The notes under the pieces were generated by a model that made no database searches, was not told the DNA's origin, and saw only the letters and a program-made list of their open reading frames with translations. Made by a program: the position numbers and the translations under genes. 64,000 bases of DNA, taken from NCBI GenBank assembly GCA_031253795.1, contig JAIRVR010000055.1, positions 62,001 through 126,000 on the forward strand, written 5' to 3'. Within the stretch, counting starts at the first letter, position 1. Every line of letters begins with the position of its first letter. Shown here piece by piece: positions 60,390 through 63,968 of the stretch. Source of the DNA: Burkholderiaceae bacterium (GTDB lineage: Bacteria > Pseudomonadota > Gammaproteobacteria > Burkholderiales > Burkholderiaceae_C).

Positions 60390-63300
60390 TCATCCGCAGC
60401 TGCCCAGGTGGCCGCAGGCCGTGCAGTATTCGCAGCCGTCCTTGCGGATGACCGCATGGGCACCGCATTCCTCGCACTTGCGGCCGGCCATGACCATGGG
60501 GTCGCTGGCCACGGGCGGCGCCTCGGGCGAAGGCGAAGACGCAGGCGGCGCACCACCGCCACGCCGCGCGAGGATGTTCTGCACCGCGTAGGCAATGGCC
60601 GCCACCTCGGAGTCGTGCCACATGGGCACGCGCGCCCCGTCATCGCGCACATGGGTGCCCAGGCGCACGGGGCCGCGGTCCCAGGCCACCTTGCGCATGT
60701 CGCTCAGCGCGCGCTCCAGAAAGCCGCCGCGCGCGGCCAGTGACAGCAGGCGCATGCTGGATGTCACCCACTGCTGGGACTCGCCGCTCTGGCCCACGGG
60801 CATGAAGAACTCGATGGCGCGGTCCACGCTGCGGCCGTCGGCCAGGACCACGGGCAGGAAGGAGACGACCAGGTACAGGCGCTTGGGGCCTTGCTGGGTC
60901 CAGTACTCGATCTTCTCGGCCACGGCATCCAGCGCGCCCTGGGGCCGGCTTTCGATGACGCTGCGCAACGGGTCGGGGGCGGACAGGGCTGCGGCCGGTG
61001 CCGCTTCGCTCGCCGCCGGTGCCTCGGCCTGGAGCACGGCGCCCAGGATGGTGTTGGGCCGGTAGGTGGCCAGGCCCTTGAGGCCGGCGCGCCATGCCTG
61101 CAGGTACAGGTCCTTGAAATCCTCGTAGGCGTAGTCGGCCGCCACGTTCACGGTCTTGGAGATGGCCGTGTCCACGTAGGGCTGGACGGCCTGCATCATG
61201 GCGATGTGGTCGGCCGCCGCCATCTGCAGCGCGCTGACGAAGTAGTCGGGCAATTGCGCCACATCGCCGCCCAGGGCACGGAACAGCCGCCAGGCATGGT
61301 CCTCGACCGCGTACTCGGCGCTGCCGCCATCGGCCGTGCGCTTTCTGCGGGTGTACGTCCAGGAAAACGGCGGCTCTATGCCGTTGGAGGCGTTGTCGGC
61401 AAAGGCCAGGCTGACCGTTCCCGTGGGCGCGATGGACAGCAGATGGCTGTTGCGTATGCCATGCACGCGGATTCGCTCCTGCAGGGCCGCAGGCAGGCGG
61501 CTGGCAAAGCTGCCGGGCGCCAGGTATCCGTCGGCGTCGAACCGGGGGAAGGCACCCTTGTCGCGCGCCAGCTCCACCGAGGCGCCATAGGCCGCGTCAC
61601 GCATGTGTTCGGCGATGCGCGCGGCCATGGCGCGGCCTTCGGCCCGGTCATAGCGCAGGCGCAGCATGGCCAGCGCATTGCCCATGCCCGTGAAGCCCAC
61701 GCCGATGCGTCGCTTGGCCTCGCTTTCCGCACGCTGCTGGGGCAGGGGCCACCAGGTCAGGTCCAGCACATTGTCGAGCGCGCGCACCTGCACGGCCACG
61801 GCGCGGCCAAAGGCCTCGAAGTCGAAGTCCGGCGTGCCCGCAAAGCCGAAGGGGTGACGCACGAAGCGCGTGAGGATGATGGGTCCGAGGTCGCAGCAGC
61901 CATAGGGGGGCAGGGGCTGCTCGCCGCAGTTGTGCACATACAGGCCATTGGCATCGAAGGCGTGGCAGTCGGCCACGGTGACGTCATAGACCATTTCCTC
62001 GCCACCGTCTTCCAGGGCCTGCACGGTGGCGGTGAAGCGCTCGCGGTCGGGATGGCGCCGGCAATCCGCCAGCGCATGCTCCAGGCGCCCGGCCTTGTCC
62101 GTGTCGGCCAGGCCGATGCGCTCGGCAAAAATGACCAGGTTGTCGCCGCTGAGCACCAGCTCATGCTGCGCCTGGGCCGCATAGTCACGCAGGCCTGCCT
62201 TGCCGTCGGGCATGGCGCGCACCTGGGCCGGCCGCCGGTTTTCGTAGAGCGTCGACGCCATGCCCAGCCGCAGCAGCATGCGCTGCACGCAGCGAAGCAG
62301 CACCATATCGCTCTGGGACAGGCGCAGGCTCGCACCCTTGTTCTGCGCTCCCTGCATGGAACCATCGGTGTCGAACAGGCCGCGCAGCAGCCCCGTGCAA
62401 AAAGCACTGGAGCACTGTTCCATGGCCGGGGTAATGTGCTTGCGCCCCGGCTCCATGCCCATGGCCAGCGCCAGGTCGCGCAATGCCGCACTTTCCATGC
62501 GTGCCTCTGCGCGATCCGCGACGGGACGCTGGAACCCCCGGAAGTCCGCACGGTGGTGGTGGAGCGTGGCGGCCGCCGCCTCGGCGGCACGGATGATGCC
62601 TGCCGCACCCGTGGTGGCAAAGGGCTGCGCGTTGGCTCCGCCTGCGACCTGGCGCAGCGCGGGCGCCCAGACACTGATCACGGCCTTGTCCGCCCGCAGT
62701 GTTCCTTCGCCCATCAGCAGGCCCAGCAGGTAGCCCTCGGCCTCGCTGCCTCGCCCATCCCAGCCGGTGAGCGCACGATGGTTGTGCAGCAGGATCTCGT
62801 CCCCGGGCACCAATCGGGAAGCAGGTATCCATTCGGCCTGCGTGGTGTAGCGGGTACGGCGCGCGACACGGCGCACCCGGTGATCGGCCGTCAGGCGCAG
62901 CGCATGGCCTTCGCGCGTGGTCAGCCGCAGCACGGGCATGCGGCCCGTGGCAAAAAATCCGGCGCTCTCCGTGGCAAACACCTGTCCATCGACCACGGCC
63001 CCGAACGGCCGGCCGATCAGGTCGGCCACCTGGGCCGGCCCGGACTCCGTGAACACCCAGGTATCGGCGGTGACACAGGGATTCGTCGCCGCGATGTCTT
63101 CGCAGTAGCGCAGGTTGTTGTCGGTGTTGATGTGGTCCAGGAAGAGGATGCCGGGCTCGGCGAAGTCGTAGGCCGAGCGCATGATGGTGTCCCACAGCGC
63201 GCGCGCCGCCACGCTCTGGTAAACCCATTGGCCGTCACCGCGCTGGTGCGCGCCCTGCTCCAGCAGGGCCGTGCCGGGACGCGCACGGTGCACGAGCTGC

Positions 63301-63968
63301 CAGGGCCCGTCCTCGGCCACGGCCTGCATGAAGGCATCGCTGACGCCCACCGAGACGTTGAAGTTGTTCCAGCGCCCCGGCGTGCGCTTGGCCGTGATGA
63401 ACTCGAGCACATCCGGATGGTCGATGCGCAGCACACCCATCTGGGCGCCGCGCCGCGCGCCCGCGCTTTCCACCGTGGCGCAGGACTGGTCGAAGACGTT
63501 GATGTAGCTGCAGGGCCCCGAGGCCAGCGAGGCCGTGGCGCGCACCTCGGCGCCCTTGGGCCGTATGCGCGAGAAGTCATAGCCGACGCCACCGCCGCGG
63601 CGCATGGTTTCGGCAGCCTCGCGCAGTGCCTCGTAAATGCCGGGATAGCCGCCCTCGTCCATGCCCTGGATGCAGTCGCCCACGGGCTGGACGAAGCAGT
63701 TGATCAGCGTGGCCTGCAAATCCGTGCCGGCCGCGCTCATGATGCGGCCCGCGCCGATGGCCCCGGCCTGCAGGTTGGCCAGGAACAGGGCTTCGCACTC
63801 CTCGCGACGGGCCTCGGGTTCGACCGAGGCCAGGGCGCGCGCCACACGCGCATACAACTGGTCCACGCCCGTCTCGCCGTTCTTGAGGTACTTCTCGCGC
63901 AGCACATCGAGGCTGATGGGCTGCATTTCGGCCGCGTCCAGCGCACGGTCCAGCTTGTCGCGTTGCAT
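60390..63968 (-). CDS. nrdJ: Adenosylcobalamin-dependent (class II) ribonucleoside-diphosphate reductase, intein-containing precursor
   Basis: TLINCFVQPVGDCIQGM, AETMRRGGGVGYDFSRIRPKGAEV, split finger-loop motif AATNP//CGEQPLPPYGCCDLGPI, IAPTGTVSLAFADNASNGIEPPF, C-terminal CxxC...CxxC zinc-ribbon. Confidence 0.95.
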   Translation of the reverse strand: MQRDKLDRALDAAEMQPISLDVLREKYLKNGETGVDQLYARVARALASVEPEARREECEALFLANLQAGAIGAGRIMSAAGTDLQATLINCFVQPVGDCIQGMDEGGYPGIYEALREAAETMRRGGGVGYDFSRIRPKGAEVRATASLASGPCSYINVFDQSCATVESAGARRGAQMGVLRIDHPDVLEFITAKRTPGRWNNFNVSVGVSDAFMQAVAEDGPWQLVHRARPGTALLEQGAHQRGDGQWVYQSVAARALWDTIMRSAYDFAEPGILFLDHINTDNNLRYCEDIAATNPCVTADTWVFTESGPAQVADLIGRPFGAVVDGQVFATESAGFFATGRMPVLRLTTREGHALRLTADHRVRRVARRTRYTTQAEWIPASRLVPGDEILLHNHRALTGWDGRGSEAEGYLLGLLMGEGTLRADKAVISVWAPALRQVAGGANAQPFATTGAAGIIRAAEAAAATLHHHRADFRGFQRPVADRAEARMESAALRDLALAMGMEPGRKHITPAMEQCSSAFCTGLLRGLFDTDGSMQGAQNKGASLRLSQSDMVLLRCVQRMLLRLGMASTLYENRRPAQVRAMPDGKAGLRDYAAQAQHELVLSGDNLVIFAERIGLADTDKAGRLEHALADCRRHPDRERFTATVQALEDGGEEMVYDVTVADCHAFDANGLYVHNCGEQPLPPYGCCDLGPIILTRFVRHPFGFAGTPDFDFEAFGRAVAVQVRALDNVLDLTWWPLPQQRAESEAKRRIGVGFTGMGNALAMLRLRYDRAEGRAMAARIAEHMRDAAYGASVELARDKGAFPRFDADGYLAPGSFASRLPAALQERIRVHGIRNSHLLSIAPTGTVSLAFADNASNGIEPPFSWTYTRRKRTADGGSAEYAVEDHAWRLFRALGGDVAQLPDYFVSALQMAAADHIAMMQAVQPYVDTAISKTVNVAADYAYEDFKDLYLQAWRAGLKGLATYRPNTILGAVLQAEAPAASEAAPAAALSAPDPLRSVIESRPQGALDAVAEKIEYWTQQGPKRLYLVVSFLPVVLADGRSVDRAIEFFMPVGQSGESQQWVTSSMRLLSLAARGGFLERALSDMRKVAWDRGPVRLGTHVRDDGARVPMWHDSEVAAIAYAVQNILARRGGGAPPASSPSPEAPPVASDPMVMAGRKCEECGAHAVIRKDGCEYCTACGHLGSCG
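61929..63077 (-). mobile_element. 383-aa intein with LAGLIDADG homing-endonuclease domain inside the class II RNR
   Basis: Block A CVTADTWVFTESGPAQV; block B LRLTADHRVRRV; DOD motifs EGYLLGLLMGEGTLR and TGLLRGLFDTDGSMQ; block F/G VYDVTVADCHAFDANGLYVHN followed by C+1 (CGEQPLPPYG). Confidence 0.95.

Follow-up and report, generated by a model that had tools for sequence, protein, structure and literature searches.

A predicted homing intein directly before the catalytic cysteine of a class II ribonucleotide reductase in a Burkholderiaceae bacterium

A putative class 1 intein in nrdJ

The window analysed here, a stretch of 64,000 nucleotides from a Burkholderiaceae bacterium, contains an nrdJ gene for an adenosylcobalamin-dependent (class II) ribonucleotide reductase (RNR). 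Judged from its sequence, a 383-aa block within this gene is a complete class 1 intein that includes a LAGLIDADG endonuclease domain and is placed directly before the catalytic cysteine. We consider it very probable (about 0.93) that this is a mobile, homing-endonuclease-bearing intein lying between Pro297 and the catalytic Cys298 of the enzyme.

The gene is a single open reading frame on the minus strand, as are all features described below, and encodes a product of 1192 aa (60390..63968). The whole product scores 539 bits against the NrdJ_Z family model TIGR02504 (cut-off 400) and matches NrdJ of Thermotoga, and its Pfam barrel domain, PF02867, is split so that it flanks the 383-aa block on both sides. 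The N-extein (residues 1-297, 63078..63968) ends in DIAATNP, the intein comprises residues 298-680 (61929..63077), where a LAGLIDADG homing-endonuclease domain splits the HINT splicing domain, and the C-extein (512 aa, 60393..61928) ends in a Cys-rich CxxC...CxxC tail. With a slash marking each splice junction, the boundaries read DIAATNP/CVTADTWVF and GLYVHN/CGEQPLPPYGCCDLG. The open frame, coordinates, junctions, 383-aa length and 809-aa product are exactly those given in a first-pass annotation of this DNA, which left out the strand.

Removal of the 383-aa block is expected to yield a complete enzyme. When EDIAATNP is joined to the start of the C-extein, TNPCGEQPL is restored within an 809-aa class II RNR that matches Thermotoga maritima NrdJ (1xje, E=5e-66; 1xje/1xjk, about 1e-66), and the joined TNPCGE aligns with the TNPCGE of 1xje. 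The Cys+1 residue (61926..61928), residue 298 of the spliced enzyme, is thereby aligned with C322 of Thermotoga NrdJ, the thiyl-radical cysteine, so that the +1 residue of the intein is the catalytic cysteine of NrdJ, as the first-pass annotation had proposed. More broadly, C91, C298 and C309 align with the C134 region, C322 and C333 of the Thermotoga enzyme, whose established roles are those of the catalytic cysteine and the redox cysteine pair. Family score, catalytic cysteine and redox cysteine pair all mark the host protein as a class II RNR (NrdJ). Between 57691 and 60372 of the window, the neighbours of nrdJ encode a DUF3567 protein, an AbrB-family membrane protein, a hemerythrin-domain protein and a YiiD_C thioesterase-like protein; none of the seven neighbours tested was recognised as a mobile-element gene.

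A class 1 intein is expected to carry a defined set of splicing residues, and conservation was counted over 81 complete alleles of the NrdJ intein. The N-terminal nucleophile Cys1 (63075..63077) is conserved in 81/81, as are T63 and H66 of the block B TxxH motif (T63-A-D-H66, 62880..62891), the terminal Asn383 and Cys+1, while the penultimate His382 (61929..61934 together with Asn383) is found in 80 of the 81. Pro at position -1 (63078..63080) is likewise present in every allele. The whole class 1 set named in the earlier annotation is thus in place.

Profile searches agree with this assignment to varying degrees. Pfam LAGLIDADG_3 is matched with E=2.9e-21, and NCBIfam intein_Cterm scores 20.7, above its cut-off of 15.6; Pfam Intein_splicing (E=1.5e-07, 31.8 bits) and NCBIfam intein_Nterm (23.1) fall slightly below their cut-offs of 35.8 and 24.5, respectively. 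An AlphaFold2 model of the intein, built from 43 aligned relatives, has a mean pLDDT of 93.7 and matches full-length inteins from residue 1 to residue 383, with Z scores of 26.8 for TliVMA, 26.1 for PI-PfuI and 22.6-24.2 for PI-SceI structures. Many mini-inteins are matched at Z of about 16-20, compared with 22-27 for full inteins. A removable in-frame insert, the full set of splicing residues and the HINT fold together place the element in class 1.

The alternative that the block is a normal NrdJ insertion domain, or a non-functional insert that disrupts the gene, found no supporting evidence. The nrdJ genes of three sisters in the same genus (G289, G340 and G331) are empty at the exact codon: they lack exactly these 383 codons, their exteins are 90-93% identical, and they match residues 1-298 and 681-1192 of the query back to back. 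The normal-domain explanation is thereby ruled out by alignment. Every splicing residue is conserved across alleles down to 58% identity, and the predicted model has an intein fold, so that we regard a block that is anything other than an intein as exceedingly improbable. The empty sister alleles, the profile scores and the whole-length fold match thus bear out the identification made in the first-pass annotation.

Proposed splicing and homing

Following translation, the Pro-Cys bond would be attacked by Cys1 of the intein (N-S shift), and the catalytic cysteine would serve as the +1 nucleophile, giving a branched intermediate. Cyclisation of Asn383, assisted by His382, and a last S-N shift would then produce TNPCGE and an active RNR. 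Since the catalytic cysteine is blocked in the precursor and splicing must free its thiol, unspliced NrdJ should be inactive, which we consider a sound deduction. In homing, the target of the LAGLIDADG domain would be the DNA of empty nrdJ alleles, cut where the codons of the gene are most conserved, with an occupied allele then serving as template for repair. Such a site would be favoured because it cannot drift and because imprecise deletion of the intein would destroy the enzyme.

The genome (an assembly of 77 contigs, 59% complete) also contains class I nrdB and a class I nrdA broken by contig ends (G000:C6:30102-31574 and G000:C17:5-1852). Given these genes, the cell should be able to survive even if NrdJ splices slowly or not at all.

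Distribution of occupied and empty alleles

The first-pass annotation had considered such an intein less routine in a betaproteobacterial chromosome, a view that the distribution does not support. With exact patterns, which miss some variants (one empty allele reads CGEEPL), the occupied junction (NPCVTAD) was found in 46 of 399 species genomes of the bacterial family of the window and the empty junction (NPC[GA]EQP) in 183, so that about one nrdJ in five is occupied. When GTDB was scanned with a single genome for each species, 210 relatives of the intein were obtained. The best 80 of these come from betaproteobacteria, namely Delftia, Comamonas, Acidovorax, Paracidovorax, Polaromonas, Hydrogenophaga, Rhodoferax, Ramlibacter, Pelomonas, Azohydromonas, Sideroxydans and others, together with unplaced Proteobacteria and a MAG that bears the title Chitinophaga pinensis, and all those that could be read are inserted at NP/C. 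Rarity in betaproteobacteria is therefore rejected. InBase lists RIR1 inteins for Acidovorax and Polaromonas as well. For the NP/CGE site in betaproteobacteria, we found no literature description beyond PMC4465626.

Searches of 72,556 plasmid and 50,697 phage records revealed no close relative that could have acted as donor; the best match there is of the SPbeta type, at about 30% identity over half the query; carriage by a plasmid or known phage was rejected on this basis. A recent phage donor was not found among viral contigs either, which give only relatives of 29-44% identity. The element is an ordinary homing intein of a well-known kind and is not rare in betaproteobacteria. A single copy such as that in the window is ordinary, and the family is a good natural experiment: sister species provide many alleles of a single gene, some occupied and some empty, from which intein gain and loss could be measured.

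Movement within the genus

Transfer of an intein between hosts is expected to leave its synonymous divergence (dS) out of step with that of the host gene. Three nrdJ genes in the genus are occupied, those of the window, D. tsuruhatensis NBRC 16741 and Delftia PS-11. The D. tsuruhatensis gene is nested among empty alleles, with extein dS of only 0.06-0.10 to G340, G331 and G289. Between D. tsuruhatensis and Delftia PS-11, intein dS is 0.15 (95% 0.11-0.20) and extein dS 0.29 (0.24-0.34); movement of the intein later than the split between the host genes would be expected to leave inteins closer to each other than their exteins, as here. The window copy shows the opposite sign, with intein dS exceeding extein dS relative to both D. 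tsuruhatensis (0.69 and 0.38) and Delftia PS-11 (0.72 and 0.45), and the intein-extein difference was at or below zero in 0/2000 codon bootstraps. Either the window copy was separately acquired from another donor or synonymous sites in the intein evolve faster, and the reversed sign in the D. tsuruhatensis/PS-11 pair argues against a uniform rate effect. Because intein and host dS disagree in both directions within one genus, we conclude that the element moves. The patchy occurrence of the intein in the family points the same way, and both observations bear indirectly on cleavage of empty alleles. The earlier suggestion of recent acquisition is thus upheld as regards mobility within the genus, although these values provide no date for the window copy.

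Third-position GC is lower in the intein than in the exteins of all three occupied genes (0.82 against 0.885-0.90 in the window, and 0.75 against 0.90-0.94 in D. tsuruhatensis). Across 78 loci, intein and extein trees share 31/75 splits, where chance would give 0.3. Of the 29 intein splits with strong support, 6 are contradicted by extein splits that are themselves strong. Intein and extein have mostly a common history, with some horizontal movement.

State of the endonuclease and the question of regulation

The LAGLIDADG domain has two helices, and both motifs keep an acidic residue, as the first-pass annotation had noted. Motif 2 (LRGLFDTDG, 62361..62387) is intact, with Asp238. In motif 1 (LLGLLMGEG, 62703..62729), the acidic residue is Glu124 (codon 62706-62708), a substitution found in the window copy alone; the other 80 of the 81 alleles have Asp. 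The accompanying claim of an intact endonuclease is therefore less certain than it was made there, and we regard nuclease activity of the window intein, as read from its sequence, as uncertain. One possible reading, tentative and in our view distinctly short of even odds, is that Glu124 has weakened or killed the nuclease and left a splicing-competent but non-homing intein, late in the homing cycle and passed on vertically until loss or reduction to a mini-intein. Beyond the singular residue itself, this is consistent with a higher dN/dS in the endonuclease region (0.25) than in the splicing region (0.09) between the window and D. tsuruhatensis, and with other alleles in which a catalytic acid was lost while splicing residues were kept: L034 (N238), L081 (A238) and L148 (G133; Asp to His in motif 1). 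However, other LAGLIDADG enzymes use Glu successfully to bind metal (E117 of I-DmoI, according to structure entry titles), so that the nuclease is not necessarily dead; moreover, frame and fold are undisturbed, as are the remaining nuclease motifs, and dN/dS in the endonuclease region is still well below 1. The Glu codon (GAA, where the Delftia copies have GAT) may even be a single-base assembly error, given the low completeness of the genome. A working, mobile intein with a possibly weakened nuclease most likely describes the window copy, whose splicing and cleavage activity we infer. Nuclease decay with splicing residues kept was also observed in L150 (G222), which has a 53-aa insertion.

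The splice junction raises a separate question. In other inteins, Pro at -1 reportedly prevents the N-S shift with which splicing begins (PMC13123727), and efficient splicing of the window intein is thus not self-evident. The same residue is native to the NrdJ inteins in all alleles, which should therefore hold a solution to a problem that stops other inteins. Pro is also the native -1 residue of the Mth RIR1 intein, where it was reportedly exchanged for another residue so that splicing would improve. One could imagine a post-translational switch, in which a Cys1/Cys+1 disulfide or a slow Pro-Cys bond frees the class II RNR only under reducing or low-oxygen conditions, complementing the oxygen-dependent class I enzyme. 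Cysteine at both junctions of 81/81 alleles is compatible with such a switch, as is the occurrence of class I nrdA and nrdB alongside nrdJ in this genome. There are also precedents: the P. abyssi PolII intein is inhibited when Cys1 and Cys+1 form a disulfide (reviewed in PMC5874633), and an intein in Aquifex RNR R2 left the spliced enzyme with higher iron loading and greater activity (PMC8772380). However, the insertion site itself fixes Cys at +1, whose conservation therefore does not speak for regulation, and the absence of the intein from most relatives with the same nrdJ, and from close sister species, argues against a switch that is needed. Since Pro at -1 and Cys at +1 are both imposed by the site, neither the Pro-Cys junction nor the disulfide precedent shows regulation here, and we consider the switch very unlikely. 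Slightly less likely still is the stronger proposal that the family is specialised for a Pro-Cys scissile bond, with the host catalytic thiol as second nucleophile, and that redox-gated splicing is the activation switch of the class II RNR.

Comparison with known inteins

The closest counterparts of the window intein, as read here to be a mobile class 1 element, are the other Burkholderiales NrdJ inteins (of Delftia tsuruhatensis, Acidovorax, Paracidovorax, Polaromonas, Hydrogenophaga, Pelomonas and others), which share its host gene, insertion codon and splicing residues at 58-82% identity and belong to the same length class (377-390 aa in most). The window copy differs from them in having Glu124 for Asp and in an intein dS to the Delftia copies that exceeds that of the host gene. 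Outside this order, the NrdJa intein of Azotobacter chroococcum NCIMB 8003 (aa 321-690, LAGLIDADG_3) is said to be present in a few gamma- and betaproteobacteria (PMC4465626). Likened from its published description rather than from sequence, this gammaproteobacterial intein resembles that of the window in host enzyme type, endonuclease family and approximate position and size. An RNR intein has also been described in Methylococcus (PMC517821), and split RNR genes in phages (PMC3653736).

Phage inteins occupy the corresponding site in other RNR types. The BnrdE intein of SPbeta (Bacillus phage SPBc2) precedes the homologous cysteine (SNL/C ... GN/CSE) and is about 30% identical over its C-terminal half, but it resides in a phage class Ib NrdE and ends in Gly-Asn, where the window intein has His-Asn. 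Viral contigs (IMG/VR) yielded 31 relatives, whose identity is 29-44% and whose insertion point is NP/C in almost every case. Unlike the window intein, these phage class II RNR inteins (319-371 aa) interrupt a monomeric-type host, the hosts tested being RTPR-type class II RNRs (RNR_Alpha, RNR-II_ins_dom). One phage-contig class II RNR (L117:1586-7072) carries two inteins (K/C...HN/CVVAGG and NP/C...HN/CGEQ) and perhaps a third, starting at FEL/CVSSDTY. Two phage inteins of the same family as the window intein (L133 and L138) are inserted one residue later, at NPC/S with Ser at +1, as is NrdJ-1, whose insertion reads NPC/SEI (PMC13123727). The NrdJ-1 split intein has the HINT fold (8ubs, Z 18.8) and interrupts the RNR active-site loop, as the window intein does, but lies one residue later (+1 Ser), is split and has no endonuclease. 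PI-PfuI (Pyrococcus RIR1 intein 1), TliVMA and PI-SceI share the whole-length HINT and LAGLIDADG fold with the window intein, at only 16-18% identity and at other insertion sites.

A second, diverged intein (about 30% identity) was observed at the same NP/C codon within the family of the window, in L151 (G114) and L152 (G030); the loci analysed here do not include G139 (L149) and G054 (L153). Its C-terminal end, FNGLVTGQ/C with Gln, resembles the FNGIVTGN/C of SPbeta. Since it occupies the same codon, at least two diverged intein lineages have chosen one residue, the catalytic cysteine. There are at least two such lineages in one bacterial family, in addition to the phage ones, all on the catalytic cysteine codon.
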